Part shown: positions 7,165 to 32,843 of the stretch, in pieces
Layout of the letters: each line of letters starts with the position of its first letter
How positions within the stretch are numbered: position 1 is the stretch's first letter
Program-made: the position numbers and the translations under genes
NCBI GenBank assembly: GCA_020072645.1
Contig: JAIQGK010000001.1
Coordinates: 310,001-374,000 of the forward strand
DNA length: 64,000 bases
Direction: 5' to 3'
From: Terriglobia bacterium
GTDB taxonomy: Bacteria > Acidobacteriota > Terriglobia > Terriglobales > Acidobacteriaceae
Notes under the pieces: generated by a model
Seen by the model: only the letters and a program-made list of their open reading frames with translations
Told to the model about the DNA's origin: nothing
Database searches by the model: none

Positions 7165-7674
7165 ATGGAAATATGCCAGCAAGAGCAGTCCTGGTTTGCT
7201 ATCCAGGTAAGGCCGCGACATGAATTTGCGTCAGCCAGGATCCTGCGAAACAAGGGCTTCGAGGAATTTGTCCCCGCCTATAGCGCGAAACGTCAGTGGT
7301 CGGACCGTCAAAAGCAAATTGAAGTCCCTCTGTTTGCCGGTTATGTGTTCTGCAAGTTCCATCCGGTAAAAAAGCTTCCAATCATCAATACGGCAGGCGT
7401 GATTCGGGTCGTGGGCACTCATCAAGGTCCTGCCGCAATTGCCGACCAGGAAATTAACGCTATCCGGAAAATAGTCGAATCTGGAGAACAAATCCGGCCT
7501 CACCCATATATAGCCGTAGGTTCAAGAATCAGGATTGAAGAAGGCCCTATGGCGGGCGTTGAAGGTATTTTTATGGGAGAGAAGAAGGGATCGGAGATGA
7601 TCATCTCCATTGACCTGCTTCAGCGTTCTATTTCTCTTCAGATTAAAGGTTATGCGATTACATCTGTTAACTAA
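7165..7674 (+). CDS. LoaP/UpxY-type NusG paralogue (transcription antiterminator)
   Basis: Specialised NusG/RfaH-family elongation factor, binding RNA polymerase and probably promoting read-through of the long downstream operon. The NGN domain begins SWFAIQVRPRHEFASARIL and includes VPLFAGYVFCKFH; a KOW-type domain begins near IAVGSRIRIEEGPMAGVEGIF. The ATG at 7165 is chosen because GGAGG lies 11 bases upstream and because NusG proteins start just before the conserved W. In-frame starts at 7147 and 7093 are also possible. Known LoaP and UpxY proteins sit at the head of antibiotic or polysaccharide operons and act only on them, in LoaP's case by recognising an RNA hairpin in the leader. A hairpin follows this gene at 7823-7850. 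Confidence 0.88.
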   Translation: MEICQQEQSWFAIQVRPRHEFASARILRNKGFEEFVPAYSAKRQWSDRQKQIEVPLFAGYVFCKFHPVKKLPIINTAGVIRVVGTHQGPAAIADQEINAIRKIVESGEQIRPHPYIAVGSRIRIEEGPMAGVEGIFMGEKKGSEMIISIDLLQRSISLQIKGYAITSVN

Positions 7675-7822
7675 TAAATAGCCAGAGCCATCGTCGGCTT
7701 CCTGAGATCGATCAACCTGAAGCTTCTCTCTATACCGGAGAATGCTCAAAACTGGAAACTCATCATCTCTAACTACAGCAACTTGGTCCTCTTCTGATGT
7801 AACTCTTCATGGGACTGAGAAT

Positions 7823-7850
7823 GGCGCGAGCCTGCCTTTACCGCTGCGCC
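7823..7850 (+). promoter_or_regulatory. RNA hairpin between the NusG paralogue and the biosynthetic genes
   Basis: GGCGC(G)AGC pairs with GCTGCGCC, giving an 8-bp stem with one bulged G and an 11-base loop. It lies in the 221-base gap after the NusG-like gene and before the dehydrogenase, with no T-tract. It could be a recruitment hairpin for the antiterminator or an attenuator; this is inference from position. Confidence 0.45.
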
Positions 7851-7895
7851 TTCTGCAATCGCTGAAAGCAAATCTCCTGCGTCTTTGGAAATCGC

Positions 7896-9017
7896 TTGTA
7901 CGCCCTAGTCTCTCAATATAATCCCCGTTACCCCAAAGTTTCTCTGCCTTCCGCATGGAAAGAGTGCATCCGTGAACTCTGCCGGATTGAGGCCATTGAC
8001 GTTCGCCCTGTCTCTCCGGCACGGCTGCAGAAGAAAAATGCCGTTCAAATTCAAACTGTGTGCGGCAGCCTGAACTATAGCGACTTAAACACCGTCCATG
8101 CCGGCGCATCAGGCTGGCATGGCAGACATGCTGTATTCGGCACCGAGATTGCCGGCTGGGTCATGGAATCGGATAAACAGAGCCAATTTAAAGAAGGCGA
8201 CCTCGTGGTTACGCGGCTGTTGAGCGTATGCGGAGCTTGTAATTTATGTAAAGAAGGCAGGGGCCGTTGTACCGTGCTGGCCAGTCAGCCAAGAGCGGCC
8301 TTTCAGGAACGGGTTTGGGTTCCTGAGATCGCTATACGCAAGGTACGTCCGGGAATTTCGCCGTTGCATGCAGTGGCCCTGGAGTTTTCGGCATCGATTG
8401 CCATGGATTTATTGAAACGATGTCTTTGTTTGCGGCCAGGTGAGACTTTGCTGATTGCTGGGGCCAACAGCGCTATTGGAAGCTGCCTCACCCAGATGGC
8501 CTCTCGCAACGGGATGCGCGTGCTAAACATTCTCCGCTCACAGGAGGCCGCATCGCGTTGTTTACGCAATGGTGCGGAGGCAGTCTTTGTGGTTTCCTCT
8601 TCCGCCGAGTTGGTGGAATTGCGGGAGCGTATGCGAGATGCGGCCTCTACTGAAAGTGTGGATGCCGTAGTCGATTTTGCCGCCGATTTTTACGGGCCCA
8701 CTTGCCTTGCACTCCTGAAATCCGCGGGCACGTATTTGCCTGTTGGGCAGTCGGGAGCAAGGCAAGTTCATCCTGCCGCGGTGCGTCCAATCGCCAGTGG
8801 AGAATTTCAGGGCTCTCCCTATTTGTTTCACGATGGTTCCTATGATCCCCAGACGCTGCTGGATAATCGCTCGGTAATTCCTCCCATTGATTCGGTCTAT
8901 CCCTATAGCAAGGTGCGGCAGGCATGTGAGCGCGCATGGTGGTCGCAGGGAAAGTCAGGCAAGGTAGTGATCGCGTTCATGGACCTTCAGACATGCCAGA
9001 CAGCTTTACAGGGTTGA
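7896..9017 (+). CDS. Zinc-type medium-chain dehydrogenase/reductase (LanJ candidate)
   Basis: Member of the MDR superfamily (zinc alcohol dehydrogenase type). The four Cys of the structural zinc lobe are intact as C-x2-C-x2-C-x7-C (C112, C115, C118, C125 in CGACNLCKEGRGRC). A catalytic-type Cys lies in TVCGSLNYSDL, and the nucleotide-binding region is LLIAGANSAIGSCLTQMA. In lanthipeptide clusters MDR enzymes of the LtnJ/LanJ type reduce dehydroalanine to D-alanine, which would suit the Ser-rich cores here (inference). The only in-frame start is TTG, giving MYALVSQYN, typical of an MDR N-terminus, with a weak ribosome binding site. Its TGA overlaps the next ATG (TGATG), implying translational coupling. 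Confidence 0.82.
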   Translation: MYALVSQYNPRYPKVSLPSAWKECIRELCRIEAIDVRPVSPARLQKKNAVQIQTVCGSLNYSDLNTVHAGASGWHGRHAVFGTEIAGWVMESDKQSQFKEGDLVVTRLLSVCGACNLCKEGRGRCTVLASQPRAAFQERVWVPEIAIRKVRPGISPLHAVALEFSASIAMDLLKRCLCLRPGETLLIAGANSAIGSCLTQMASRNGMRVLNILRSQEAASRCLRNGAEAVFVVSSSAELVELRERMRDAASTESVDAVVDFAADFYGPTCLALLKSAGTYLPVGQSGARQVHPAAVRPIASGEFQGSPYLFHDGSYDPQTLLDNRSVIPPIDSVYPYSKVRQACERAWWSQGKSGKVVIAFMDLQTCQTALQG

Positions 9018-15130: not shown

Positions 15131-15274
15131 ATGAACAAGCTCAATCTTGATCTGCAGATCGAACCGATCACAGACGAAATTCTGGAATCGGTTCTCGGCG
15201 GCATTGGCGACGAAGACGGCATCAGCAACAGCTGTTCGACCAAAGACTGCTCCAACAGCACCCAAACTGCCTAA
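15131..15274 (+). CDS. RiPP precursor peptide 1
   Basis: A 47-aa precursor. The leader is MNKLNLDLQIEPITDEILES followed by VLGG; the N-L-D-L box corresponds to the FNLD-type motif recognised by LanB enzymes, and LGG is a C39 double-glycine cleavage site. The predicted core starts IGDEDGISNSC and ends STKDCSNSTQTA, with two Cys in C-x4-C spacing and nine Ser/Thr. It is the most divergent of the five paralogues at the N-terminus (L instead of F in the box). AAAGGAGG lies 8 bases upstream, the strongest ribosome binding site in the array. Confidence 0.9.
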   Translation: MNKLNLDLQIEPITDEILESVLGGIGDEDGISNSCSTKDCSNSTQTA

Positions 15275-15299: not shown

Positions 15300-15449
15300 A
15301 TGGAAAAGAAGAATTTCGCACTCGACCTGCACATTGAACCGGTTACCGACGAAATCCTGGAAGCGGTTCTTGGCGGCATCGGCGATGAAGACGGCATCAG
15401 CAACAGCTGCTCCACCAGCGGCTGTTCCAACAGCACCAAAACTACCTAA
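15300..15449 (+). CDS. RiPP precursor peptide 2
   Basis: A 49-aa precursor with the F-A-L-D leader box (MEKKNFALDLHIEPVTDEIL), AVLGG cleavage site, and core IGDEDGISNSC then STSGCSNSTKTT. GGAG lies 8 bases before the ATG. The core differs from its neighbours only between the two Cys and at the C-terminus. The His in the leader (LHIEP) is unique to this copy. Confidence 0.92.
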   Translation: MEKKNFALDLHIEPVTDEILEAVLGGIGDEDGISNSCSTSGCSNSTKTT

Positions 15450-15472: not shown

Positions 15473-15622
15473 ATGGAAAAAAAGAACTTCTCTCTCGACC
15501 TTCAGATGGAACCAGTCACTGACGAGATCCTGCAATCCGTTCTCGGCGGCATCGGTGATGAAGACGGAATCAGCAACAGCTGCTCCAGCACTAACTGCTC
15601 GAACTCAACCAAGACAACCTAA
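15473..15622 (+). CDS. RiPP precursor peptide 3
   Basis: A 49-aa precursor with leader box F-S-L-D (MEKKNFSLDLQMEPVTDEIL), QSVLGG cleavage site and core IGDEDGISNSC then SSTNCSNSTKTT. AGGA lies 8 bases before the ATG. The two residues before the second Cys are Thr-Asn here. Confidence 0.92.
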   Translation: MEKKNFSLDLQMEPVTDEILQSVLGGIGDEDGISNSCSSTNCSNSTKTT

Positions 15623-15657: not shown

Positions 15658-15804
15658 ATGAAAAAGAACTTTGCCCTTGATCTGCAGCTTGAGCCAGTTA
15701 CCGACGAGATCCTGGAAGCAGTCCTCGGCGGCATTGGCGATGAAGATGGAATCAGCAACAGCTGCTCCACCAACACCTGCTCCAATTCAACCAAGACCAC
15801 CTAA
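15658..15804 (+). CDS. RiPP precursor peptide 4
   Basis: A 48-aa precursor, one Lys shorter at the N-terminus (MKKNFALDLQLEPVTDEILE), then AVLGG and core IGDEDGISNSC followed by STNTCSNSTKTT. GAGGAG lies 7 bases before the ATG. The residue before the second Cys is Thr, so this copy has the most hydroxyl residues between the Cys. Confidence 0.92.
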   Translation: MKKNFALDLQLEPVTDEILEAVLGGIGDEDGISNSCSTNTCSNSTKTT

Positions 15805-15826: not shown

Positions 15827-15979
15827 ATGAACAAGAAGGACTTCCAACTTGATCTCCAGATTTCGCCGGTAAGCGACGAAATCCTGGAAAACATCCTTGG
15901 CGGAATCGGCGACGAAGACGGAATCAGCAATAGTTGCTCCAGCAGCGGCTGCTCGAATTCCACCCAGCCGACCAACTAG
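15827..15979 (+). CDS. RiPP precursor peptide 5
   Basis: A 50-aa precursor, the most divergent in the leader (MNKKDFQLDLQISPVSDEIL, then ENILGG), with core IGDEDGISNSC followed by SSSGCSNSTQPTN. Its C-terminus ends Pro-Thr-Asn instead of Thr-Thr or Thr-Ala. AGGAG lies 7 bases before the ATG. The core start is unchanged although the leader has drifted, indicating selection on the core. Confidence 0.92.
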   Translation: MNKKDFQLDLQISPVSDEILENILGGIGDEDGISNSCSSSGCSNSTQPTN

Positions 15980-16096: not shown

Positions 16097-17938
16097 ATGC
16101 TTCTGAAATCAAAAATCGCTCCGCGTCCCGGCTGCTGGCAAGCAGTCAAAGCCGTGGTCTGGCCCCTGTTTGCGGCAAACGGCTGGACGGCTGCGTGGCT
16201 CGCCACGCTCGGCCTCATTCATATTGTATCTCTCCTGTGGATACCCAGAGTCGTACAAAGCCTGTTTGAACAGGCCACGCAGTCCCGCCTGCTAGGCGAA
16301 CTTGCCTGGAGCGGCATCCAGCTTGTGCTGGCCGCTGCCGTGGTGTCAGCTTCCTCGGCCATGCTGGAGACCAGCGCCGCCCGTGCCCTCTATCGTGATC
16401 TGCAGCAGCTTGAGCTCCGGCTGTTCGAAAAGATTCTTTCGCTACCTGTTTCAGAATGCGAGCATCTGGGGGTCGGCAAACTGTATTCCCGCCTTCGCGA
16501 CGACATTCCCCAGCTCTCGCCTTTCCTGATCGGCGACGCAGCGCCTTACCTGATTATTGGATTGCAACTGGCGGCGGTCATCGCGCTGCTGTTCTCCATT
16601 GACTGGACACTGGCGCTCACCAGCATTCTGGTTGCGATGGTCATCGCTGGAGCTAATTCAGCATTTACCCCGCATCTGCGCAGGATCGCACGCCACTCCC
16701 AGGAAGAAGTTGCACTATTGAGCAGCTACCTGGCGGAAGTACTGGCACACATCAGCACCATCAAGGCTTGCAATGCGGAGGCCGGCGAGCAAATCCGGTT
16801 TGCAGACGCTGATCGCGCCGTAAACCGGGAAAGATGCAGGTTACAGGTGGTCTCCCGCCTGCTGGGCGAAGCTAACTCCGGCCTGGGAAGGCTGGGATTT
16901 CTGGCCATTGCTATCGTGGGTGCGTGGCGCATCCATTCTGGGGCCCTGACCGCGCCTCTTTTCATGTCGAGCATTGTGTATATCAACGTTCTGCTTTATT
17001 CCAGCCGGTCGCTGATCAACTTTACGCCACGGCTGGCCACCGGACTTGAGGCTGCCGTGCGCATTGCAGAGATGATGCAGAGTACCGCTGAAGCCAGCCA
17101 CTTCGGCGCGCTACGGCCCGCGGCAGCGGAAGGCAGCCTGCAGTTGCGTAACCTCAGCTTTGCTTACGATGGCGGCAAACCAGTGTTGAAAGGCGTGGAT
17201 TTGGAAGTTCCCGAAGGCGCGAAGGTTGCTATTGTCGGCCCCAGTGGTGCAGGCAAGACCACTTTAATGAAACTAATGTTGGGCTTCGCCCACCCCGGCG
17301 AGGGCGAGGTATTACTGGGCGGTTATCACCTGCGCGATCTGGATTTGAAATTCGTGCGCAACCATGTCGGGTACGTCCCGCAGGGGAGCGCATGCGTTCT
17401 CCGCCGCGCTGTCACAGAAAATATTGCGCTGGGCTCGCCCAATCCAAGCCTAGAGGCAGTCCACCAGTCCGCGGTTGCAGCGCAGGCGGATGGGTTCATT
17501 GCCGGACTGCCGCGTGGATATGACTCGGTCGTCGGCGCCGACCAGGGAGCTTTCTCCGGAGGCCAGGCGCAAAGAATTGCGCTGGCCCGGGAACTGTTGC
17601 GCCGGCCGAGAATCCTGATTATGGATGAAGCCACCTCACAACTGGATCTGCCTACGGAGCGCCAGATCATCGATACGCTCCTGAACGTCTTCCATGACAC
17701 TACCTGCATCGTCGTGTCGCACCGGCTGGCCTCGGTACGCGACTTTGACTTGATCGTTGTCATGGACGAGGGCAGGGTGGTCGCCACTGGATCGCATACC
17801 GAACTGCTGGAACAAAGCGAACTGTATGCAGCCCTGTTTTCGCTTCAGGACGCGCCTTCCGACAGAACGAATGGCAGTCCAGGAAAAAGCGGGAATTTAT
17901 GGAGAGAGGAGGCGGTGAATGTCCACGCCAGAATTTGA
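16097..17938 (+). CDS. ABC exporter, fused membrane and ATPase domains (LanT-like without peptidase)
   Basis: Full half-transporter of the MsbA/HlyB type, 613 aa. About residues 20-310 form a six-helix membrane domain. The ATPase domain has Walker A GPSGAGKTT, signature FSGGQAQRIALARE, Walker B ILIMDEATSQLD and an H-loop SHRLASVRD. It lacks the N-terminal C39 peptidase found in peptidase-containing exporters; a separate C39 protein is encoded about 1.6 kb downstream. It probably exports the mature peptides. The start has no clear ribosome binding site. Its 3' end overlaps the next gene by 20 bases. Confidence 0.9.
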   Translation: MLLKSKIAPRPGCWQAVKAVVWPLFAANGWTAAWLATLGLIHIVSLLWIPRVVQSLFEQATQSRLLGELAWSGIQLVLAAAVVSASSAMLETSAARALYRDLQQLELRLFEKILSLPVSECEHLGVGKLYSRLRDDIPQLSPFLIGDAAPYLIIGLQLAAVIALLFSIDWTLALTSILVAMVIAGANSAFTPHLRRIARHSQEEVALLSSYLAEVLAHISTIKACNAEAGEQIRFADADRAVNRERCRLQVVSRLLGEANSGLGRLGFLAIAIVGAWRIHSGALTAPLFMSSIVYINVLLYSSRSLINFTPRLATGLEAAVRIAEMMQSTAEASHFGALRPAAAEGSLQLRNLSFAYDGGKPVLKGVDLEVPEGAKVAIVGPSGAGKTTLMKLMLGFAHPGEGEVLLGGYHLRDLDLKFVRNHVGYVPQGSACVLRRAVTENIALGSPNPSLEAVHQSAVAAQADGFIAGLPRGYDSVVGADQGAFSGGQAQRIALARELLRRPRILIMDEATSQLDLPTERQIIDTLLNVFHDTTCIVVSHRLASVRDFDLIVVMDEGRVVATGSHTELLEQSELYAALFSLQDAPSDRTNGSPGKSGNLWREEAVNVHARI

Positions 17939-18611: not shown

Positions 18612-19561
18612 AGAATGGCGCGGTGCATGAAATCGTCACGTTCGGCCTGAACGCCTACTACTGGGGAGACCCGGAGCAGGATTTTCTGCTGGCGGAAGGC
18701 CTCGGACCCATCCTGCGGGAAGCCGACCTGCGATGGGATCTGGCCAGGATCTGGTATGACCGCGGCACCATGCGCGGTCCCCACATTTTCTGCCTGCTAA
18801 CGTCCCGCTCTGATCAGGCCGCCGCGGCCATGGAATTCCTGCGGGCGAAGATAGCAGTTTTCATCCAGCGGCATCCTTCCAACTGTCCGCTGACCGCGGA
18901 CCAACTCGCCGCCCTGCACCGGGACGCAAGCGGAAAGGCGTTTTGCATGGCTGACCTCGCTGAAGGAATGGCCGGCAATAATGAGTTGCTGGTTTTCTTC
19001 CAGGAAAATGCGGAGCAACATTACCCCTTCCGGCTCTGCAGTGACTCGCGCGCCGAAGCAGTTTGGCGGGCGTGGAAAAAAGCGGCATTCTGGATCTTGC
19101 GGCAGATAGAATCGGCGGAATCGCTGGAAGCATCGGCAGTCTGGTTTCTGCTGGCCTGCGACCATCTATTTTTCAAAACCGCGGACGCAAGAAAAGAATA
19201 TTGGGGACGCCATATCGGCACCCTCATTCCCAATCTCGACCGCCACCGCTTGTCCGGTGAACATGTGCAAGCCATGGCCTGCCGCCTGGTTTCACCGCAA
19301 AGCATGGAGCGCATCGCCGCATGGCGCGAGCAGATCTCTTCCGCAGACCGTCCTCCGCAGGCAGAAGAGCTGCTCGCGATCATAAGCCAGTTGCAATCGC
19401 AAATAGCACAGCCGCTGGGACGCGACCAGGCGCTGCTACGCGAATTGATCCACGTGAGCCTAAAACAGCTCGGAATTCATGTGGTGCGGCAGATTCCAAT
19501 GATCTTCACCGTGGCGGCCTTGAGCTGGCCGCAATCGAAAATACAAGCGGGCGTCTCTTGA
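18608..19561 (+). CDS. SpaB_C-like thiopeptide-type biosynthesis protein (copy 2, divergent)
   Basis: A 317-aa protein resembling the SpaB_C family. It starts with a strand containing NAYYWGDPEQDFLLAEGLGPIL and then has W-x-x-x-R-I-W-Y-D-R-G-x-x-R-G-P-H-I, equivalent to the W...RY...GPH(I/V)R(L/I)R motif of copies 1 and 3, but the final Arg residues are replaced (FCLLTSR). It may therefore be a divergent or specialised member. The ATG overlaps the upstream TGA (ATGA). Its end overlaps the C39 gene start (TTGA). Confidence 0.68.
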   Translation: MKNGAVHEIVTFGLNAYYWGDPEQDFLLAEGLGPILREADLRWDLARIWYDRGTMRGPHIFCLLTSRSDQAAAAMEFLRAKIAVFIQRHPSNCPLTADQLAALHRDASGKAFCMADLAEGMAGNNELLVFFQENAEQHYPFRLCSDSRAEAVWRAWKKAAFWILRQIESAESLEASAVWFLLACDHLFFKTADARKEYWGRHIGTLIPNLDRHRLSGEHVQAMACRLVSPQSMERIAAWREQISSADRPPQAEELLAIISQLQSQIAQPLGRDQALLRELIHVSLKQLGIHVVRQIPMIFTVAALSWPQSKIQAGVS

Positions 19562-20847: not shown

Positions 20848-20857
20848 TTACACGAAT

Positions 20858-23169: not shown

Positions 23170-23182
23170 GCATCTAGAAAAA

Positions 23183-24661
23183 ATGAATACTTTTATCATT
23201 CTCTTTACCCATGAACTGCGGCGGCTGTTCCGCGATCCCCGGCTCCTGCTGGCTACGGTGGCTGTTGCGGCGCTTGCCGCAACGGGAACATGGCTGCGCG
23301 CTGCCGACTACAGCACCCTGTCCCATGAATACCGGGCCGAGATGAGCAAGAATGAGGCGGAGATCCTGCACACAGGAGAGCTGAACCGTCTTTATGACAT
23401 GACGCCGCCGCAGGTCCCGCCGGAACCCATGGCCGTCTTTCATGAAGGCATTCCGCTAGTGGCCCGCAACGTGGGAACCACGGAAGCCTCCGTGCATGAA
23501 GCCGCTTTCAACGCAAACCCGCTGTCGCAGATGTTTCCGTCACTTGACCTGACGACGGTTGTGATCTGGGTAATCGGCCTTGTCACCTTGCTGATGGCCG
23601 CCGTGGCTCTCTCCGGTGAACGAGAAAGCGGAACCTTTGAGTTGCTTGTGACCGCTGGAGCATCATCGTGCCACTTGGTCCTTGCTAAATGGCTGGCCAT
23701 CACCGTTTGCTCCGGAGCGATCCTGGCCTGCTGTATGACAACGGCATGGCTGGCAGCGGTCTTGTCCGGGCTGTCCTTTGATCACGCCCGGATCTCCGAG
23801 TTCCTGCTTTCCTCGTTCGCTTCGCTCCTGTACCTGGGATCTCTCGCCGGACTGGGCGTGGCCCTTTCGTCCAAGGCTTGCTCCCGCGCACGAGTCATGA
23901 TGAGCTGTGCTGGGTTATGGATGCTGATCAGCACCATTCTCCCTTCAGCGGTGGCCCATCTCCTGGGAGAAGCCACCAGGATTCCCGGTTTTGCCCAGAA
24001 GCGCCAGCAGATTGAACACATTCTGACAAATGAGAGAGAGCAGCACCTGAACGGGCAGATTGCCACCGTTTACCACGATGACAATGCGCAACTGGAACGC
24101 TATCTCAAACCCGCGGGCTACAACGCGGCCAAGTTCCGCGCCTTGCCCGATCAACAGATTGACCAGGTGGCAGGCCATTTGAGCGCCGAGGACGCCGGAT
24201 TTCGATCTTTGTGGGATCAGGAGCAAAGCAGGGTGCTGGACGTGATCCAGTCCGTGTGGACGGATTACCAGGGCCGCGCCGACTCAATGGAAGAACAGCT
24301 TCGCGCCCAGACCGCCCGGCAGACCCGCTTTGTGCTGGCCGCGACGGCATTCTTGCCGGCCGTGGCTTATAAAGAAACGGTTTCACGCCTGCTGGGTATG
24401 TCCTACCTGGACTTGGCGCATGCTGAGCGGTCGCAAAAGGACTACAAGATACGGACAGTCGACTACATTTTTACTAAAGCGCGCATGATCGGCGGCCGCG
24501 ATCCCTTCAACGCGCACGTAAGCCTAGACGACAGGCCGCGTTTCCTGTTCCAGCAGCGCGGTGCGGCAAGGCGCTTGCTGGATGCTTCGCCATTTCTCCT
24601 GGTCCTGCTGGCATGGACCGCCGGCCTGCTGCTCTTCGCGGTGAAGGCCACATCTCGGTAA
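23183..24661 (+). CDS. ABC-2 type permease (DUF3526), second subunit
   Basis: A 492-aa permease from the ATG at 23183 (MNTFIILFTHELRRLFRDPRLLLATVAVAAL). A start at 23144 would overlap the previous gene and is less likely. It has the same architecture as the preceding gene: N-terminal helix, exposed region, coupling segment SGERESGTFELLVTAGASSCHLVLAKW, several helices, a long soluble domain (about 270-400) and a final helix. The two permeases are similar in design but differ in sequence, so they probably form a heterodimer driven by the ATPase of the next gene. Confidence 0.82.
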   Translation: MNTFIILFTHELRRLFRDPRLLLATVAVAALAATGTWLRAADYSTLSHEYRAEMSKNEAEILHTGELNRLYDMTPPQVPPEPMAVFHEGIPLVARNVGTTEASVHEAAFNANPLSQMFPSLDLTTVVIWVIGLVTLLMAAVALSGERESGTFELLVTAGASSCHLVLAKWLAITVCSGAILACCMTTAWLAAVLSGLSFDHARISEFLLSSFASLLYLGSLAGLGVALSSKACSRARVMMSCAGLWMLISTILPSAVAHLLGEATRIPGFAQKRQQIEHILTNEREQHLNGQIATVYHDDNAQLERYLKPAGYNAAKFRALPDQQIDQVAGHLSAEDAGFRSLWDQEQSRVLDVIQSVWTDYQGRADSMEEQLRAQTARQTRFVLAATAFLPAVAYKETVSRLLGMSYLDLAHAERSQKDYKIRTVDYIFTKARMIGGRDPFNAHVSLDDRPRFLFQQRGAARRLLDASPFLLVLLAWTAGLLLFAVKATSR

Positions 24662-24688: not shown

Positions 24689-25417
24689 GTGCATCACGGA
24701 ATCGTTATTCAAAACCTCAGCAAGTCTTACAGCAACGGAAAAGCGGCGGTCAGCAACTTGTCGCTGGACGTCCGTCCCGGGCAGGTTTATTGCCTGCTCG
24801 GCCACAATGGCGCAGGTAAAAGCACCACGCTCAAGGTCCTGCTCGGCCTGCTGCTTCCTACCTCCGGCAAAGCCTGGGTGGGGACGCACGAAGTCTCGAG
24901 CGCACCGGCGCTGGCGCGCCAGGCGATTGCGTATTTGCCGGAAAGCGTCTCACTGTATGGTGATCTTTCTGCCCGCGAGAACCTGGAATTCTTCAGCCGT
25001 CTTGGCGGCCAGAACCACCTAGAAAGAAGCGATTATTACGCCATTTTGAACCAGGCAGGCCTGCCCGGCGGTTCGGAAGAGCTTCGGGTCAGCAGCTTCA
25101 GCAAAGGCATGCGGCAGAAACTGGCTCTCGCCATTGCGGTCAGCCGCAAGAGCAAAATCCTGATTCTGGATGAGCCCATGTCCGGCCTCGATCCGGCGAC
25201 GGCGGAAGAAATTGTCCAGGTGATTCAGCGTGAGCGCAATCACGGCAGGGCGATCCTGATGGTGACCCACGACCTGAACTCGGTGGAGCAGATCGCCGAT
25301 ATCGCGGGGTTCATGCGCGAGGGGAAACTCGCAGCGGAATTTTCGCGGCAGGAACTCGAGGGGCGCGATCTTAATCAGCTGTATAAATCTTTGCAGCACT
25401 CCACGGTGGCCGCATGA
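24689..25417 (+). CDS. ABC transporter ATPase subunit
   Basis: A 242-aa ATPase partner of the two upstream permeases. It has Walker A GHNGAGKST, Q-loop region LPESVSLYG, signature-like VSSFSKGMRQKLALA, Walker B ILILDEPMSGLDP and H-loop MVTHD. The GTG start follows AAGAAAGG. It ends overlapping the next gene's start by four bases (ATGA). With the permeases it most likely gives self-protection or secondary export of the cluster's peptides. Confidence 0.9.
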   Translation: MHHGIVIQNLSKSYSNGKAAVSNLSLDVRPGQVYCLLGHNGAGKSTTLKVLLGLLLPTSGKAWVGTHEVSSAPALARQAIAYLPESVSLYGDLSARENLEFFSRLGGQNHLERSDYYAILNQAGLPGGSEELRVSSFSKGMRQKLALAIAVSRKSKILILDEPMSGLDPATAEEIVQVIQRERNHGRAILMVTHDLNSVEQIADIAGFMREGKLAAEFSRQELEGRDLNQLYKSLQHSTVAA

Positions 25418-26730
25418 TGTCGAAATCCCTGTTCAGCCTTATCCTTGTCCTTGCTCTCCCAGCTCTTGCGCAAAACGCTTTTGTGCAAAACAATGCGCGT
25501 CTTGACCAGCGCCTGGAAAATGGCATGCGAGTGATCCTGGTGGAAGACCATCATGCGCCGGTTGCGTCTTACGTGCTGCTCTATAAATTTGGATCGGCGG
25601 ATGATCCGCCTCATCGCACCGGCCTGGCGCATTTTTGCGAACACCTGGTGCTCACCCGATCAGGAGAGGCGTCTGTCCGCTACGCGGCGCTAATCCAGTC
25701 CCGCGGAGGGACTTTCAACGCCACCACCGGGCGCGATAGTACCCGGTTCTACGCCACGGTGCCTTCCACCGCTTTGCTGCCCGCGCTTGCCTATGAGGCC
25801 CAGCGGATGAAGGGCCGCGAGTTCACCCCGGAAGGATTCAAACTGGAATCCGGGGTTGTGGAAAATGAGCGCGTCCAACACCACGAAGACCAACCTTATG
25901 GAGCGGCCGAAGATTACCTGGATGAGTTGGCCGCCTCCACCACGGCGTACCAGCATCCCGTGATAGGTTACGTGCCCGACCTGCGGCAGATTACCTTACA
26001 GGAAGCCAGGGAATTCATTGCTACGCATTATTGGCCGCAAAATGCGGTGTTAACCATTGTGGGAGACTTCTCCGCCCCGCAACTTCTGAAGAGCGTTCAC
26101 GCCATCTTCGGCGGCGGCAGCCAGCCGAGCGATCTTGCCGCCGTGCCGCGTCAAGTGGAGCCGCACTCGCACGATGGACAGTTTGAAACCACGGACAAGC
26201 AGGCTCGCGCCGCCCGCCTTTACTTTGCCTATCCGGCACCGAGCCTGGGAGATAAGGCCGCTTCAGACTTGCTGCTGCTGGATGTCATTCTGACGAAGAG
26301 CCAGCATGCCCGCCTGAAGCAGGCCCTGGTCGATTCCAGAATCGCCAGCTCCGTGAAAAGTGACATGGAATTCCGTAAAGATGGCGGCCTTTACTACCTG
26401 ATCGTCACGCTGGCGCGGCCCGACGCCGCGGAAAAGGCCAGCGCCGCCATAGACGCCGCTCTGCGGAGCATCCGCGAAACCGGAATTACTGCCGCGGAAT
26501 TGCGCCGGGCACAACTGATCCTGGAAGGCGAGCAGGCGGAAAAAGACGAGAGCTCTCGCTATCGCGCTACGCAGATTGCCACAGGCGCTGCGCTTTTCAA
26601 CGCTCCCGATATTCTTGAAAGCACCAACGATCAACTCCGCCATGCAACCGGCAGCCAGATTGCCGGCGTGGCCGGCCATTACCTGCTCGGCAAAGAGCAC
26701 GTAAGTCTTCTCGTTAAACCCAATAAATGA
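25414..26730 (+). CDS. M16 family zinc peptidase, catalytic subunit
   Basis: Insulinase/pitrilysin-type metallopeptidase, 438 aa, with a signal peptide (about residues 1-20, ending ALAQ), so it probably acts in the periplasm. The inverted zinc motif H73-F-C-E76-H77 is intact, and E152 in VVENERVQ is the expected third ligand. In RiPP pathways M16 peptidases remove leaders or trim N-termini, as PqqF-like enzymes do; here it may trim residues left after C39 cleavage (inference). It is translationally coupled to the ATPase gene and followed 20 bases later by its partner. Confidence 0.88.
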   Translation: MMSKSLFSLILVLALPALAQNAFVQNNARLDQRLENGMRVILVEDHHAPVASYVLLYKFGSADDPPHRTGLAHFCEHLVLTRSGEASVRYAALIQSRGGTFNATTGRDSTRFYATVPSTALLPALAYEAQRMKGREFTPEGFKLESGVVENERVQHHEDQPYGAAEDYLDELAASTTAYQHPVIGYVPDLRQITLQEAREFIATHYWPQNAVLTIVGDFSAPQLLKSVHAIFGGGSQPSDLAAVPRQVEPHSHDGQFETTDKQARAARLYFAYPAPSLGDKAASDLLLLDVILTKSQHARLKQALVDSRIASSVKSDMEFRKDGGLYYLIVTLARPDAAEKASAAIDAALRSIRETGITAAELRRAQLILEGEQAEKDESSRYRATQIATGAALFNAPDILESTNDQLRHATGSQIAGVAGHYLLGKEHVSLLVKPNK

Positions 26731-26750: not shown

Positions 26751-28178
26751 ATGTTGCGAAAAATCTTAGGCATATTTCTCTGCGCCTTCTCGTTGCCGCT
26801 CTTTGCGGGGCAGGTGCCGTCCAGGATCGAAAGAACCGGGCCTTCAGAAAATTTAGGGGGAATGCCCCGGTTTCACTTTCCGCCCAGCCGCTTGCGCAAG
26901 CTGAGGAATGGAATTTCCCTCGTTACGATGCAAAGCGCGGGTATGTCCCATTTCATTCTGCATGTGCGTGTGCTTGCCAGCAGCGTAAACGATTCTCCCG
27001 GGCTTCCCGGCGTTGCCGAGGCGACAGCGAAACTACTTGTCGGGGACAATGATGCCCTAAAACAAGACTTGGAAGACTACGGGGCCACGCTCGAAACTTC
27101 CGTTTCTTACGGTTCTTATACTACGGAATTCAGTGTCAGCGGCCCGGTGGAAGCGTTTGATTATGCGGCCGGCAAGCTGTTCCATGCGCTGACCCGGCCT
27201 GCATTCACCGCGAAGAACCTGGCGGAGTGGAAGCTCCGCCGCACGGCCAAGCTGCAAGACCAGAAGAGCTCGCCGAATTACCTGGCTGATTCCGTGCTGG
27301 CGCACCTCCTCTATGAAGATGCACGCGAAAATACCGGGCCTGACGATGAGAGCCTGCAGCGGATGACCGTGGCCGACCTCCAGAAGTTTTATCAGACTTA
27401 CTACAGCCCCTGCCGGACATCAGCAGGAGTGATCAGTCCAGTGCCTGCCTCCGGCGTGGAGTCCAGGCTGCAGAAGTTGTTCTCTTCCTGGAAAGGTTGT
27501 GCTGCCGCGGACGCGGTGAAGACGGTCGACCGCCCGCTGGCGGGAAAGTCGGTCCACTTGGTGGACGATCCCCAAATGAAACAGGCTTACCTCGTGTTGG
27601 GCAAGCCTGCTGTCTCGCGTCTGAGCCTTGACTACGCCGCATGCCTTGTTCTGAACCGGATTCTGGGAGAAGGGCCCGGCTCACGGTTGTGGCCGATCCG
27701 CCAGACCAAAGGATATACCTACGATATACACAGCTCATTGACCGCTCTGAAATACCTGCACCACATTTCAATTACGGCGGCCCTGGCTCCGGAGCGCGTC
27801 CACGATGTGCTTGGATTGATTACGGCCGAAGTAGAAGCGCTTCGCACCAGTGGGCCCACGAGAGAAGAAGTGGAGGCAGCCAAAGAAGCCATCGTTGGCG
27901 GCCTTGCTCTCGACCTGGAAAACCGGGATGTGATCCTGGGAACGGTCATGAATCAGTATCTTTACGGCTGGGCAGCCGGTCACGAGCAGCAATATGTGCT
28001 TGAATTATTGGCGATTAACCCCCGAAGGGTGCAGCAGGCGGCACAGAAGTACCTGGATACCAATCAGATGCAGATCATCGTGATTGGCAATAAGAAAGTC
28101 CTGGGACCGCTGCTGGGTAGGGGCAGCTCGCTTCCTGTGAATGCTCTTTTCACAAAAAGGGCGAATGAAATTAAGTAA
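26751..28178 (+). CDS. M16-like peptidase, probable non-catalytic partner
   Basis: A 475-aa M16-fold protein with signal peptide (ending FAGQV). The zinc site is lost: where HxxEH is expected the sequence reads GVAEATAKLL. The C-terminal domain retains the Arg/Tyr substrate-binding pair (GSRLWPIRQTKGYTYDIHSSL). Such active/inactive pairs are the usual M16B arrangement, with the inactive subunit binding substrate. It directly follows the catalytic subunit in the operon and is the last gene before an AT-rich gap. Confidence 0.85.
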   Translation: MLRKILGIFLCAFSLPLFAGQVPSRIERTGPSENLGGMPRFHFPPSRLRKLRNGISLVTMQSAGMSHFILHVRVLASSVNDSPGLPGVAEATAKLLVGDNDALKQDLEDYGATLETSVSYGSYTTEFSVSGPVEAFDYAAGKLFHALTRPAFTAKNLAEWKLRRTAKLQDQKSSPNYLADSVLAHLLYEDARENTGPDDESLQRMTVADLQKFYQTYYSPCRTSAGVISPVPASGVESRLQKLFSSWKGCAAADAVKTVDRPLAGKSVHLVDDPQMKQAYLVLGKPAVSRLSLDYAACLVLNRILGEGPGSRLWPIRQTKGYTYDIHSSLTALKYLHHISITAALAPERVHDVLGLITAEVEALRTSGPTREEVEAAKEAIVGGLALDLENRDVILGTVMNQYLYGWAAGHEQQYVLELLAINPRRVQQAAQKYLDTNQMQIIVIGNKKVLGPLLGRGSSLPVNALFTKRANEIK

Positions 28179-28290: not shown

Positions 28291-30702
28291 ATGAGTTGGA
28301 AAGTGATTAGACAGGATTTTCGAAGGATCAGGCGCACATGGAAAGAAAGCCTGATGATAGCGCTGACGCTGGGTATAGGCGTGGCGGCAAGTACACTTCT
28401 GTTCGCGCTTTTATACCGAATGGTGATACGCCCGCTGCCGTATTCTCACTCCGAACAGCTGGTTTATATTTCAGAAACCAATTCCGGCGGGGCTTCCATA
28501 CCAGCCGCTTCACCGGACGTGGCCGACTGGCAAGCCATGAGCCACGGCTTGGAATCCCTGGCAAGCTACGGCGGCCAGCCCATCACCGTTTTGGGAGGCA
28601 GCTATCCGGTGCGAGTAGAAGGCACCGGCGTTTCCCGGGACTTCTTCCACGTACTGCAGGTGCAGCCTGCCATGGGACGTACATACTCTGCGGAAGAGCA
28701 GCAGTTGCATGGTTCCCCGGTCGTGCTGGTCAGCGATCGCTTCTGGAAAGACCAACTCGGGGGACGACCCGAGGCCATCGGCAAGAGCCTGCGCATCCTC
28801 GACATGGACTTCACCGTCATCGGCGTAATGCCTCCTGCATTCGAATTTCCAGGCAAGACACAGATCTGGATCTCGCGCGAGATATTTCCCAGCTCAACAG
28901 ATCGCAGCGCCCATAACGATTTCGTGATCGGACGGCTCAAGCCGGGCGCTTCCGTCACTGAAGCCGGGTCGGAGCTGCAAGGAATCGCCCGCGAATTGCA
29001 GGCCAAATACCCCACTACCAATCATGGAGTTGGAGTACGAGTGGAGACGCTCCAGGAACACTTGTTGGGTGAACAAAAGACCGCTTTGTTGCTGGCCTTC
29101 GGAGTGGGGCTGTGCGTCCTGATCATTGCCGGGGCGAACCTAGCCAATCTTTTCCTGAGTCGGGTGCTCACGCGGCAGAACGAACTGCTGATCCGCGAAG
29201 CTTTTGGCGCCACTCGCAACATGATCGTTAAAGATCTTTTACGAGAAGCTGTATTGCTTGCCGTGGCTGGCGGAAGCGTGGGACTGTTGGGAACCTATGT
29301 GTCCATCCGGATTCTGCGGCAATGGTCGCTCTCGTGGTCGTCTGTGGGAGCGCTGGGCATTGACGGCGCAGTCAGCGCGTACGCGTTCGTCATCGCCGTG
29401 CTGGCAGCGTGCCTCGCTGTGATCGCGGCCGCGTTCAACCACCGTCGCAGTAACCCTGCCGCGGTGGTCAGGGGTGCGCCTATGACTTCTACCACAAACC
29501 GGCAGCAATCCTGGCTGCGCACCACCCTGGTTTCCGCTGAAGTGGGAATCGCATTTGCAGTTTGCCTGAGCGCCGGCTTGCTGCTTCACAGCTGGGACAA
29601 GGTCGCTTCGCAGCCTTCCGGCCTGCGTGACGCCAACATGCTGGTGGCAAACTTGTCATTGCCGGCCGTCCCGGGCTCTGAAGAAGCTGCGGCCCAACAT
29701 ACTGTCACGTTTTATCAATCCCTGCTGCAACAGGTTTCCGGCATTGCCGGAGTGCGTTCGGCGGCCGTGGTGAATGATGTGCCTTTTTCCGGCAACGATC
29801 ATAACGGAAATTTCATCATCGAAGGCTCGGGAGAAAGCGGAGGAGGACAGGAGAACGGAGCTAACTTCCGCGTGGTGAGCTCTGAGTATTTCAATACCAT
29901 GGGGATTCCTGTGCTGGAAGGGCGCGGCCTCAGCGACTCCGACAACTCCGGCGCAACGGCCGTTGCCGTGATAGACGCCGAGACGAGAAAACAGTATTTC
30001 CGCGACCATGATCCCATCGGCAGGCGCATCAAGCTGACCGGCCTCGACCCCAAGGCGGATTGGGCCACCGTAGTAGGCGTTTGCGGCACTGTTCGTGATA
30101 TGCAACTGAACGCCGCGACTTCGCCCCACATTTATGTTCCGTTGAGCCAGCATCCGGGCGCGGTGATGGACGCGGGCATCATCCTGCGCACCGAAGCTAC
30201 TCCCACCAGCCTCATTGGTCCGGTCCGCAATCTGGTTGCGGGCTTGCAGCCCGGCGGGGTAGTGGAGTTCACTACGACTTCCGACCTCTTGGCAAATTCC
30301 CTGAAGAATTTTCGCCTCCGCGCGTCGCTGGTGCTGGCGCTGTCTCTGATCGCGCTGGCGCTATCAATGATCGGCATCTATGCGCTGGCCAGCACGATGG
30401 TCCGCGAGAGACGAAAGGAAATCGCCATACGCATTGCTGTAGGCGCGGACTTGAAGCAGATTGTCAGGTTCGTCCTCTTTAAAGGATTGCTGCCGGTGCT
30501 GTACGGGGCCGCCGCCGGCTTGGCCCTTTCCTACAGCGTGGCTTTTCTGTGGAGGAAATTCCTGTTTGGCGTTTCCGTCTGGGACCCGGCCACCTTTATC
30601 GCGGTTCCGGCGTTACTGATAGGCGCCGGGCTGCTGGCCAATGTCGTCCCCGCGTTTTTTTCCGTCAAAATCAATACCCAGCAAATGCTTAAGGAACAAT
30701 AA
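28291..30702 (+). CDS. ADOP-family MacB/FtsX-type permease
   Basis: An 803-aa permease of the Acidobacterial duplicated orphan permease (ADOP) type: an N-terminal helix (SLMIALTLGIGVAASTLLFALLYRMVI), a MacB_PCD periplasmic domain (about 45-240), three helices, a second periplasmic domain (about 415-630) and a final FtsX-like block with the ERRKEIAIRIAVGA coupling motif. It has no own ATPase. ADOPs occur in large numbers in Acidobacteria, often next to unrelated genes. It may take part in peptide efflux or resistance here, or merely be a neighbour. Confidence 0.88.
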   Translation: MSWKVIRQDFRRIRRTWKESLMIALTLGIGVAASTLLFALLYRMVIRPLPYSHSEQLVYISETNSGGASIPAASPDVADWQAMSHGLESLASYGGQPITVLGGSYPVRVEGTGVSRDFFHVLQVQPAMGRTYSAEEQQLHGSPVVLVSDRFWKDQLGGRPEAIGKSLRILDMDFTVIGVMPPAFEFPGKTQIWISREIFPSSTDRSAHNDFVIGRLKPGASVTEAGSELQGIARELQAKYPTTNHGVGVRVETLQEHLLGEQKTALLLAFGVGLCVLIIAGANLANLFLSRVLTRQNELLIREAFGATRNMIVKDLLREAVLLAVAGGSVGLLGTYVSIRILRQWSLSWSSVGALGIDGAVSAYAFVIAVLAACLAVIAAAFNHRRSNPAAVVRGAPMTSTTNRQQSWLRTTLVSAEVGIAFAVCLSAGLLLHSWDKVASQPSGLRDANMLVANLSLPAVPGSEEAAAQHTVTFYQSLLQQVSGIAGVRSAAVVNDVPFSGNDHNGNFIIEGSGESGGGQENGANFRVVSSEYFNTMGIPVLEGRGLSDSDNSGATAVAVIDAETRKQYFRDHDPIGRRIKLTGLDPKADWATVVGVCGTVRDMQLNAATSPHIYVPLSQHPGAVMDAGIILRTEATPTSLIGPVRNLVAGLQPGGVVEFTTTSDLLANSLKNFRLRASLVLALSLIALALSMIGIYALASTMVRERRKEIAIRIAVGADLKQIVRFVLFKGLLPVLYGAAAGLALSYSVAFLWRKFLFGVSVWDPATFIAVPALLIGAGLLANVVPAFFSVKINTQQMLKEQ

Positions 30703-30707
30703 CCCTG

Positions 30708-30731
30708 ATGCCTCGCCCCGCGGTGAGGCAT
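30708..30731 (+). terminator. Hairpin terminator after the ADOP permease
   Basis: ATGCCTCGCC and GGTGAGGCAT form a 10-bp stem with one G-T pair around a CCGC loop, five bases after the permease stop codon, followed by a pyrimidine-rich TTCCTCCTT. Position and shape fit an intrinsic terminator, though the T-run is weak. Confidence 0.65.
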
Positions 30732-30905
30732 TCCTCCTTGAAAATTCAGGTTAGCCTCTGCTCCATCCCAGATTGTGCAAAACGGCTCAATCCGGGAGCT
30801 CTGGTGGGCCGTGCCACACGGTCTATAGCAAACCTAAAACGGCTTTTGAGGGCGCGGCGGCGTTGCTCCGCTTAGTTTGCCCGATCTCTCTTGGAGTTTC
30901 TATTC

Positions 30906-32843
30906 ATGCACAACCTTGCAAATATTACGAATTTCTCCGTCCCGTCCGGTACTATACCAGCTTCCGGAGCAGTTGCTCTGGTCTATACCCCCTGGGGATC
31001 TTTCACTCGTGGGTCGATTGCTCTTGGCATTTTGAAAGAATGCGTCCGCAGCACCGGATGCAGCGCAGATGTGCATTACCTGAACATCGATTTTGCGCAG
31101 AAGATCGGTCTGAAGCGGTATGACCATATCGCGCGAAATTCCGTGCTGAGCGCGGAATGGTTCTTCTCCAGAGCGCTGTCGGCTTCGGTAGGACAAGAAT
31201 TCAAGAATGACTGGCACGCATTGAAGTCCACGCCGGAAGGCCGCCGGCTGGCCGATGAATTGACAAACCTGATGGGCGGCTCGGAAGAGCTATGCATCCG
31301 GCTGGCCGAACAGACCGTCCCTGAATTCCTTGAGGAATCGCTGGTAGGCGTTCCGTGGGAAAAATACGATGTGATCGGGTTCTCCGTCACATTTGCCCAG
31401 ACGCAGGCATCATTGCTTCTGGCACAGCGTCTTAAACAGAAGTATCCAGAAAAAACAATCGTGTTCGGCGGGGCCAACGTGGATGCTGGTATGGGATTGC
31501 AACTGCTTCGCGCCTTTCCCTGGATCGATTATGTGGTGCACGGAGAGGCGGAAGAATCGTTTCCGGAGCTCCTGAGGAACCTGCTTGCGGGCAAGCGGTT
31601 CGTGCCTGTAAATGGCGTCTCCTTCCGCGAGGGCGGCCAGATTGTCGCCGGAGACCATAACGCTCAACCGCTCTCACGGATGGATGACTCGCCCGTTCCC
31701 GATTACAGCGACTATATAACTGCAGTGAAAAAAGCAGGCATTCCGGCAAAGTTCCAAGTCAAACTCCCGTTTGAATCCTCGCGTGGATGCTGGTGGGGAG
31801 CGAAGCATCATTGCGCATTCTGCGGCCTGAACCGCGATTCCATGGCGTTCCGCAAGAAATCGCCGGCGCGCGTTTATGATGAACTCCTGCACCTTTCGCG
31901 CGAGTACGAGTGCAACAATTTCTACGCCGTAGACAATATCCTGGACATGCTTTACTTCACGGAATTACTGCCCCGCCTGGCGGAGCGCAACCTGGACCTC
32001 TCCATTTTCTATGAAATCAAGGCGAACCTCTCGCGCGAGCAGGTGCGCATGCTAGCTGCTTCAGGAATCAGGGCAATCCAGCCGGGAATCGAAAGTTTCA
32101 ACTCCGAGCTGCTGCGCGAGATGAATAAGGGCGTGACGGCGATCCAGAATATTCAGTTATTGAAATGGTGCCGCGAAGAGGGGATTGACGTGGTTTGGAA
32201 CATTCTTTATAGCTTTCCCGGCGAACAAGCCAGGCATTATGCCGGAATGCCGGAGCTGCTGCGCTCCATTGCGCACCTGCAGCCGCCGCTTTCGGTTTCG
32301 CCTGTGATCGTGGAGCGGTTCAGCCCTTACCATTCGCAACGCGAAAAATATAAGCTGAAACTCAAGGCCGCGGAAGTTTATTCCCTTCTTTATCCATCTG
32401 AAAAAATGGACCTGGAGAGCTTTGCTTATTATTTCGATACCATCTCCGATGAAGCAGCAGGTTCCAGCGGTGACTACATTTCACCCATGATCGCTGCCTG
32501 CAACGAGTGGAAGGCGGCTCCGGCAACCTTCGTCTATGAAAAAGGAGAAGGGTTCAGCGTGCTCTACGACAACCGGCCGCTGATCCCCGGCACGCCCGTA
32601 GCCACGCGGCGAATCGTGCTGCGAGACGTCCAAGCCGATATTTATGACTTCTGTGACAAGCATCGCTCTTTCAAAAGCATCCTTGAATGGTGCAACAAGA
32701 ATGGAAAATCCATGGATGAGTCTCGCCTGCGCAGCTTGCTACAGACTTTGAGTGCCAACAAGCTCATGTTTGAAGAGAATGACCACTACTTGGCGCTGGC
32801 TGTTCGCAAGCCCCGCTTGAAAGCATTCAGGCTTACCGGTTGA
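30906..32843 (+). CDS. B12-binding radical SAM RiPP maturase (RiPP maturation radical SAM protein 1 type)
   Basis: A 645-aa radical SAM enzyme. The N-terminal 200 residues form a cobalamin-binding-like Rossmann region (IVFGGANVDAGMGLQLL, DYVVHGEAEESFPEL). The [4Fe-4S] ligands lie in ESSRGCWWGAKHHCAFCGL: C295, C303, C306, the C-x7-C-x2-C spacing of this RiPP-linked group rather than classical Cx3Cx2C. The C-terminus has a winged-helix-like region (about 560-640). Members accompany unusual RiPP precursors and several B12 radical SAM enzymes methylate unactivated carbons. The ATG at 30906 has GGAG 9 bases upstream; an in-frame TTG at 30891 overlaps this site and is rejected. It follows a terminator, so it probably has its own promoter. 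Confidence 0.88.
   Translation: MHNLANITNFSVPSGTIPASGAVALVYTPWGSFTRGSIALGILKECVRSTGCSADVHYLNIDFAQKIGLKRYDHIARNSVLSAEWFFSRALSASVGQEFKNDWHALKSTPEGRRLADELTNLMGGSEELCIRLAEQTVPEFLEESLVGVPWEKYDVIGFSVTFAQTQASLLLAQRLKQKYPEKTIVFGGANVDAGMGLQLLRAFPWIDYVVHGEAEESFPELLRNLLAGKRFVPVNGVSFREGGQIVAGDHNAQPLSRMDDSPVPDYSDYITAVKKAGIPAKFQVKLPFESSRGCWWGAKHHCAFCGLNRDSMAFRKKSPARVYDELLHLSREYECNNFYAVDNILDMLYFTELLPRLAERNLDLSIFYEIKANLSREQVRMLAASGIRAIQPGIESFNSELLREMNKGVTAIQNIQLLKWCREEGIDVVWNILYSFPGEQARHYAGMPELLRSIAHLQPPLSVSPVIVERFSPYHSQREKYKLKLKAAEVYSLLYPSEKMDLESFAYYFDTISDEAAGSSGDYISPMIAACNEWKAAPATFVYEKGEGFSVLYDNRPLIPGTPVATRRIVLRDVQADIYDFCDKHRSFKSILEWCNKNGKSMDESRLRSLLQTLSANKLMFEENDHYLALAVRKPRLKAFRLTG

Follow-up and report, generated by a model that had tools for sequence, protein, structure and literature searches.

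A 64,000-nucleotide stretch from the genome of a Terriglobia bacterium in the phylum Acidobacteriota (contig C1:310001-374000 of assembly G000, 6.4 Mb and 99.14% complete; hereafter the window, with positions counted from its first letter) carries a gene cluster for a ribosomally synthesized and post-translationally modified peptide (RiPP), in which a split LanB dehydratase and three separate SpaB_C proteins, here called a, b and c, accompany five tandem precursor genes, and in which no LanC or YcaO match was found among the cluster open reading frames (ORFs) scanned against Pfam. We tentatively read it as a member of a rare split-LanB RiPP family in which LanB and protein c would dehydrate the precursor and ring closure may have passed from LanC to protein b, a derivative of the glutamate lyase. 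The original prediction, made from the letters alone, had listed the split LanB, a C39 peptidase, a medium-chain dehydrogenase/reductase (MDR) enzyme, a pair of M16 proteins and a B12-type radical S-adenosylmethionine (SAM) enzyme, all of which are recovered by family search. It had also held that the locus fits neither a standard class I lanthipeptide pathway, for want of LanC, nor a thiopeptide pathway, for want of YcaO, and this stands, with the module recurring in three other genomes, one of them without any LanC match. The cluster is not unique, its module being present in three further genomes of the phylum (G423, at L029/L030; G577, at L077; and G576, divided between two contigs, L079 and L080).

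Dehydration by LanB and c is well supported by homology. The LanB protein matches Lant_dehydr_N (PF04738, 4.6e-22) with no match to the C-terminal domain, as expected of a split LanB, and its PDB matches include 6ec7, a "Lantibiotic dehydratase domain protein" that we take to be TbtB (1.7e-22), and 9jhq, a "Goadsporin biosynthetic protein" (1.5e-9). Six of the seven polar columns conserved in at least nine of ten reference LanBs, chosen by annotation or context, are kept, N660 being the one lost, and R618 is kept in all four module LanBs and lost in all three NRPS (nonribosomal peptide synthetase)-associated LanBs examined. The four module LanBs form one clade (support 100/100), apart from the thiopeptide, NRPS-associated and LanC-linked LanBs and from one further clade, in a tree of 22 rows of which 16 were flagged for unusual composition and which does not include one of two hits in G001 or the LanB proteins of G373, G328 and G285 contig 1. 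Families, structures and residues together suggest that both halves of a LanB-type Glu-tRNA dependent dehydratase are present, namely LanB_N and a canonical lyase, c, and the window protein reads as the glutamylating half and not as a PEARL, an enzyme extending the end of a peptide with amino acids from aminoacyl-tRNA. Like the window protein, PEARLs are LanB_N proteins to which no lyase domain is fused. One LanB-like enzyme from an NRPS-PKS (polyketide synthase) cluster is named as a PEARL in the title of its report (PMC11212132). However, the window protein sits with the canonical lyase c, matches TbtB-like structures, falls in a clade apart from four NRPS-associated LanBs and has R618, lost in the three examined, and such a function is here extremely unlikely.

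Matches to the LanB protein were found in 7 of 396 phylum genomes and in 5 of 200 nearest relatives, the source genome counted in both, and most of those elsewhere fall in other LanB clades. The same-genus homologs among these 200 genomes were considered as relatives of the cluster and set aside, having NRPS/PKS-like neighbours (judged by eye) and belonging to a different clade. The same-genus genomes encode LanB-like proteins of about 830-880 aa near NRPS/PKS-like genes at L008, L009, L011 and L014 (again by eye); the three examined have no Arg equivalent to R618, and these proteins are possibly PEARLs. Scanning genome contigs with the LanB protein returned four pattern-matching stretches, none confirmed as a relative.

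Three SpaB_C proteins had been predicted, and three are present: a and c match PF14028 directly, and b is placed by a TbtD/PbtD model and by its homolog. Protein b has no direct PF14028 match and is counted as SpaB_C because its homolog in G423, 30% identical, matches the family at 6.5e-8. In a tree of 31 rows, from which G576b, G373_C40_1, G373_C40_3, G312_C20 and LanB_G290 were left out, a, b and c form three supported clades (100/99, 99/99 and 99/96), and clade a consists of the window protein, two copies from G577 and one from G576; three SpaB_C paralogs have therefore long been maintained alongside one another. NisB carries the motifs PHIRLR, ERYGG and IHVHNNRL, which we take to hold the residues for glutamate removal. 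That reaction is described as relying on two paired Arg residues, one more Arg and a His (PMC9011353). In protein c the corresponding PHxRLR, RYGG and HMxxNRL are kept in all four members, and the clade-c profile matches PDB chains 5ehk, a "Lantibiotic dehydratase" which is presumably MibB (8.9e-7), and NisB (3e-5), as well as 9g04. Protein a has a divergent lyase domain with HIKIR, no RYGG and LHGVSN; the second Arg of the pair is kept in all four members of its clade and the first is Lys in three and Gln in one, and no PDB chain is matched by the clade-a profile at E 10 or better. In protein b the Arg pair (RxR) is absent from all four members (GPHIFCL, GPHLFLL, GPHVFFV and GPHLMLL; RGPHIF in the window), and the G577 copy also has no His. 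Clade b has 22 invariant columns overall, including an invariant H....GKxxCxxD stretch, and its profile matches PbtD at E 0.005 and TbtD at E 0.05, the motif W[FY]xRxxxRGPHLxL being common to b and PbtD, with no LanB in the PDB up to E 10. No match to b was found in plasmids by tblastn, and a contig scan with the b alignment, using two short patterns only, gave 36 pattern-matching stretches with no relative confirmed.

From these parts a pathway can be proposed. LanB would glutamylate Ser and Thr residues of the core with Glu-tRNA, and c would remove the glutamate to leave dehydroalanine (Dha) or dehydrobutyrine (Dhb). Protein b, having lost the two Arg residues that bind the glutamyl moiety, would then act with its partner, a 230-aa orphan protein, in closing a ring at the motif [S/T]xxxCS, joining either two dehydrated residues (i and i+5, as with Ser1 and Ser6 in MroA1) or a Cys to one dehydrated residue, and a may be a second altered lyase or a helper. 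From their families, the MDR enzyme would reduce a dehydro residue, the radical SAM enzyme would C-methylate, the C39 peptidase would cut after GG and the ABC exporter would export the product. Protein b is the likeliest substitute for LanC because it occurs in all four loci, has lost the lyase residues and comes nearest to the pyridine synthase PbtD at that site; it is offered as a working hypothesis, since its match is weak, lies far under the cut-off and is bettered by that of c.

Several observations weigh against this assignment. The clade-c profile also matches TbtD, at 0.0013 (window c alone at 0.0008), so that resemblance to TbtD is not peculiar to b. The weak match of b to PbtD extends over 59 of 314 profile positions, its TbtD match (0.05) is no better than that to the unrelated sperm-associated antigen 6 (0.056), and on the TbtD/PbtD model, with a cut-off of 325 bits, b proteins score 21.5-35.7 (window 25.6) and c proteins score higher, at 40.7-73.4. 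The tree does not join b with the pyridine synthases and flags long branches. On the side of the substrate, the G576 core has Thr at position i and no S-x4-S, and a LanC lies beside that module; a [4+2] reaction that eliminates the leader would not require a C39 peptidase; and leader likeness to MroA1, considered as evidence for a pyritide, proved not to be specific, other LanB-type leaders being about as similar. All cores here contain Cys, whereas pyritide precursors are described as having none (PMC9247985). Loss of lyase residues need not end lyase activity, as the cited account of SptBb indicates (PMC9011353), although SptBb as described there retains the Arg pair that b has lost. The more far-reaching version, in which b, as a descendant of the glutamate lyase, and the 230-aa protein form a new macrocyclase that replaces LanC, links two Dha residues or a Cys and a Dha at [S/T]xxxCS in azole-free peptides with Cys, and defines a new RiPP class scattered through the phylum, with a adding a third activity of the same fold, is rather doubtful.

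Five precursors had been predicted, and the five tandem genes, encoding peptides of 47-50 aa with a leader of the form [FL]xLD...LGG and a core IGDEDGISNSCSxxxCSNST..., bear this out. Among the copies pN/pS (nonsynonymous over synonymous differences per site, as uncorrected proportions over ten pairs of related copies) stands at 0.20 over the leader and at 0.16 over the core, so that substitutions are mostly synonymous per site; the five precursors are therefore real genes under purifying selection. Each core has 8-10 Ser/Thr and two Cys in a C(x4)C spacing, and the three residues between CS and the second Cys vary, the first of them being Ser or Thr in all five. The sister precursors, picked by eye among small ORFs adjoining the module, read ...AVAGG RGDDCSCTYTTGACSSSETEGPSEV in G576, also reached by tblastn with the window precursors (1e-5 to 8e-5), ...VAGG WCSWRRCSNAPEEDSTPEEQ in G577 and ...VSGG AEIDEGDCDSWWCCSNTNA in G423. 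Common to all four core types is [S/T]xxxCS, which arises in composition shuffles at 11-18% for the window, 16.5% for G576, 3.9% for G577 and 2.8% for G423; the product of these rates, counting the window once, is about 3e-5 for a motif that was picked after the data were seen. The cores of the window, G577 and G423 also contain S-x4-S, and that of G576 does not.

The serious and main rival explanation is a lanthipeptide without LanC, in which LanB and c would dehydrate and the Cys would add to the Dha four residues upstream without an enzyme, or sped by the dehydratase. Closure would be unaided because S[ST]xxC, found in all five window cores, would preorganise the ring, and a and b would do something else. 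The spacing [S/T]xxxC is that of a small ring and is present in all four loci, TSxxC likewise stands in all eight cores found of a second LanC-free split-LanB family described below, and all five window leaders have [FL]xLD, which presumably corresponds to the class I FNLD box. In rosin, (Dhx)2-Xxx-Xxx-Cys is reported to close with no enzyme, and several class II and Va peptides are said to close under similar substrate control (PMC12291118). On the other hand, the sister modules with no LanC beside them, G577 and G423, have SWRRC and SWWCC at this position, without two dehydratable residues, and it is the LanC-bearing G576 that has TTGAC; [FL]xLD is found in none of the three sister precursors; and [ST][ST]xxC turns up in 19-31% of shuffled window cores and in 34-61% of those of the second family. 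Nor does spontaneous closure explain why a Ser invariably follows Cys or why b and the 230-aa protein constantly occur as a pair, and some enzymes are described as overriding the preference of the motif (PMC13343206). On balance we regard it as somewhat unlikely.

A peptide that is dehydrated and not macrocyclised, with Dha/Dhb, D-amino acids made by way of the MDR reductase and Cys as disulfide or free thiol, and with no thioether or C-C ring, would agree with the absence of LanC and YcaO from the cluster, with the C(x4)C spacing and with the fact that the top models of the MDR enzyme, all of them sub-threshold, reduce C=C bonds. It is improbable, however, in view of the Ser/Thr conserved at the fourth position ahead of Cys and of the constancy of the b clade, which suggest a further joining step, and of general chemistry, by which a free Cys adjacent to Dha would be apt to react. 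Of the original guesses about cyclisation, closure by a SpaB_C protein and non-enzymatic closure thus stay the leading explanations, and absence of a ring drops to a lower-graded rival.

LanC might also act from elsewhere in the genome, an outcome that would have undercut the original prediction. A genome-wide search found one LanC domain only, inside a 979-aa LanM on contig 12 (L016:9837-12776) that has the motifs GFAHG, WCHG and CHG and adjoins an AMP-binding enzyme, with no sign of pairing with the cluster; the sole YcaO match in the genome is on contig 36. Closure of the rings in trans by this LanM, giving a mixed lanthipeptide, would be in keeping with its complete motifs, with the lack of a clear precursor beside it in a filtered list inspected by eye and with G576, where the module coexists with LanC. 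The LanM nevertheless lies on another contig, and G423 has the module with no LanC match anywhere in a genome that is 99% complete, which leaves closure in trans very improbable. As for the other sister genomes, G577 has two LanC genes on other contigs, one of them beside a split LanB of its own, and G576 (86% complete, 5% contamination) has one LanC immediately upstream of SpaB_C-a and a second one close to SpaB_C-c (L079:8214-9509 and L080:71-1165), the zinc site of both reading CCG and not CHG. LanC thus adjoins one of the four modules and is therefore not part of the common core, yet is compatible with it.

That common core comprises LanB, c and the 230-aa protein in all four loci, with b also in all four, though in pieces in G576; a is present in three, twice in G577 and with no separate copy seen in G423. 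The SpaB_C-b profile finds matches in 3 of 72 genomes of the order of G423 and in 2 of a 396-genome phylum sample, own included, the two samples overlapping. In the fetched sister stretches tblastn at 1e-3 gave no match to the MDR, M16, ABC-2, ADOP, radical SAM, UpxY or 750-aa proteins of the window, the only matches being ABC and C39, beside the G577 module. A different B12-binding radical SAM gene, unmatched by the window enzyme at 1e-3, lies about 5 kb before the G577 module (L077:4387-5796); a JmjC-domain protein directly follows SpaB_C-c in G423 (L030:1851-3086) and suggests hydroxylation as a tailoring step there; an unlabelled 333-aa protein stands beside the G576 module (L080:1253-2251); and a pair of 360 and 353 aa, ending in LSH[IV]K[LV]V...AK[AT]Y, adjoins the modules of G577 and G576 (L077:10691-11773 and L079:6269-7330).

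A second split-LanB clade was found in G285, G312, G470 and G266 by the tree and in G373 and G328 by tblastn, with loci at L059, L060, L063, L066, L034 and L036 (genomes G373, G470, G266, G312 and G285). Its leaders read L[DN]LE[IV][ED]EIE and its highly conserved cores [ST]SS[ST]TSxxCTCxC, with GG before the core in four of the eight found. Whole-genome searches give no LanC match in G266, G373 or G328, three of the four genomes searched, G470 being the exception; in G285 and G312 there is a single LanC match each, located on a different contig. Split-LanB clusters free of LanC therefore seem to recur in the phylum; being LanC-free is not unique to the window cluster, and the second family heightens its interest.

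Among known systems, the pyritide cluster mroBCD of Micromonospora rosaria resembles the window cluster in having a split LanB with a stand-alone lyase, another member of the lyase family and no azole genes; as described, Ser1 and Ser6 of MroA1 are dehydrated by the split LanB and closed by MroD, a member of the InterPro family of the lyase, and this pair at i and i+5 resembles S-x4-S in the window, G577 and G423 cores (PMC9247985). The window cluster differs in its Cys-containing cores (two in each of the five), third SpaB_C protein, C39 peptidase, 230- and 750-aa orphans, reductase and radical SAM enzyme, in the weak relation of b to pyridine synthases and in the G576 core, which has no S-x4-S. 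Thiopeptide clusters (TbtB/TbtC/TbtD and micrococcin-type plasmid clusters) include the nearest solved LanB relative and the same layout of a split dehydratase with an extra SpaB_C, but the window cluster has no YcaO and its LanB and SpaB_C clades are separate. Pinensin, a split-LanB class I product, reportedly has a LanC. In pinensin and SapT glutamylation and elimination are placed on separate proteins and the cores contain Ser, Thr and Cys (PMC7268733, PMC9011353); SapT is described with a LanC (SptC), which the window cluster lacks while having two additional SpaB_C proteins. The coi cluster, with a second glutamyl lyase in the CoiSA elimination domain, likewise has more than one SpaB_C, one with an altered active site, but is described with a full-length LanB, a LanC and a methyltransferase fusion, and the Arg pair seen in SptBb is absent from b (PMC9011353, PMC9486935). 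Class Va lanthipeptides such as rosin and lexapeptide form lanthionine without LanC, in rosin by way of (Dhx)2-Xxx-Xxx-Cys, but are reported to dehydrate with LanK and LanY (PMC12291118), and neither PF01636 nor PF17914 is among the Pfam matches of the scanned cluster ORFs. Additional SpaB_C domains and split LanBs have been described before (PMC7268733, PMC9011353, PMC9486935), and this, together with the G576 module lying beside LanC, bears on the original suggestion of a new RiPP class: the locus is indeed non-standard, but a new class is no more than a possibility. No description of this gene set was recognised by title or abstract start among the open-access matches listed, and extra LanB elimination-domain proteins doing tasks other than elimination are mentioned as an intriguing possibility by Walker et al. 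(PMC7268733).

The features of the cluster, a run on the + strand from the UpxY-type antiterminator at 7165 to the end of the B12 radical SAM gene at 32843, are collected in the table. The antiterminator, the two orphans, the ABC exporter, the two ABC-2 permeases with their ATPase and the ADOP permease were absent from the earlier list. The ADOP permease, going by its family name, is indicative of the Acidobacteriota. Intergenic gaps are mostly short or negative, the largest being 222, 189, 118 and 113 bases, and one long operon governed by the UpxY-type protein, its probable regulator, is therefore likely. A promoter/terminator scan of 6400-9100 found one of each, fewer than in shuffles, and an Rfam scan at the gathering threshold found one tRNA only.

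Features of the RiPP cluster, with positions in the window
Feature	Position	Strand	Evidence and remarks
UpxY/RfaH-type transcription antiterminator, 169 aa	7165..7674	+	NF033644 2.2e-32, 112.3 bits (cut-off 100)
MDR oxidoreductase	7896..9017	+	ADH_N 5.1e-13
Orphan protein, 750 aa	9020..11272	+	no Pfam family over its cut-off
SpaB_C protein a, 333 aa	11260..12261	+	PF14028 7.1e-13
LanB glutamylation protein (predicted), 904 aa	12353..15067	+	PF04738 4.6e-22; thiopeptide/goadsporin-like
Precursor 1	15131..15274	+	leader ...SVLGG, core IGDEDGISNSCSTKDCSNSTQTA
Precursor 2	15300..15449	+	core IGDEDGISNSCSTSGCSNSTKTT
Precursor 3	15473..15622	+	core IGDEDGISNSCSSTNCSNSTKTT
Precursor 4	15658..15804	+	core IGDEDGISNSCSTNTCSNSTKTT
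Precursor 5	15827..15979	+	core IGDEDGISNSCSSSGCSNSTQPTN
ABC exporter, membrane and ATPase domains	16097..17938	+	PF00664 1.5e-27, PF00005 2.2e-30; no C39 match
Orphan protein, 230 aa	17919..18611	+	homologs in G423, G577 and G576 at 24-29% identity
SpaB_C protein b, 317 aa	18608..19561	+	TbtD/PbtD model 6.2e-6
C39 leader peptidase ORF	19321..20847	+	PF03412 6e-26 at residues 81-208; start uncertain, domain from about 19561
SpaB_C protein c, 321 aa	20858..21823	+	PF14028 2.1e-34, TIGR03891 2.2e-29; ORF 20555-21823, domain from about 20858
ABC-2 type permease	21871..23169	+	PF12679 2.4e-18
ABC-2 type permease	23144..24661	+	PF12679 1.2e-17
ABC ATPase	24689..25417	+	PF00005 5.4e-30
M16 peptidase	25414..26730	+	PF00675 5.5e-19, PF05193 1.9e-23; HFCEH active-site motif present
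M16 partner without HxxEH motif	26751..28178	+	PF05193 1.4e-27
ADOP-family duplicated permease	28291..30702	+	TIGR03434 659.4 bits (cut-off 622.3)
B12 radical SAM enzyme, RiPP maturation C-methyltransferase family	30891..32843	+	TIGR03975 2e-199, 664 bits (cut-off 281.85)

The closest models of the MDR enzyme are quinone reductase and acryloyl-CoA reductase, all far under cut-off. It retains a four-Cys stretch, CGACNLCKEGRGRC, and has GTE where zinc alcohol dehydrogenases have GHE, and it is a candidate Dha/Dhb reductase with a LanJ-like role. The C39 ORF has the Cys motif QKSLNDC, the rest of it appearing membrane-bound by eye, and the B12 radical SAM enzyme carries a CX7CX2C motif.

The 750-aa orphan has no above-threshold match to any Pfam family (best E 0.12), only chance-level PDB matches (E 1.9 and 3) and no match except itself among the 396 phylum genomes and none in plasmids. 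It was considered as a hidden LanM, LanC or SelO-like protein and rejected in each case, at hhalign probabilities of 0.1-0.2%, with LanC as positive control scoring 99.9%. SelO-like and kinase-like stretches were noticed by eye only, and its SelO score of 14.8 is below that of 17 of 20 shuffled controls (range 13.8-26.0). The 353/360-aa neighbours in G576 and G577 do not match it. The 230-aa orphan has no Pfam family at E 1 and no PDB match better than E 0.17. Outside the cluster, the string STPIWDD is repeated several times in antisense ORFs on the - strand, at 47547-48827 and 50764-51516, and suggests a dispersed repeat.

Three elimination-domain proteins from three clades, one with the lyase residues intact and one without them, in a cluster from which the usual cyclase is missing, make the question of ring closure directly testable with few genes. 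If b closes the rings, it would be a new macrocyclisation tool, and if the rings close by themselves, closure without LanC would extend to LanB-type lanthipeptides.

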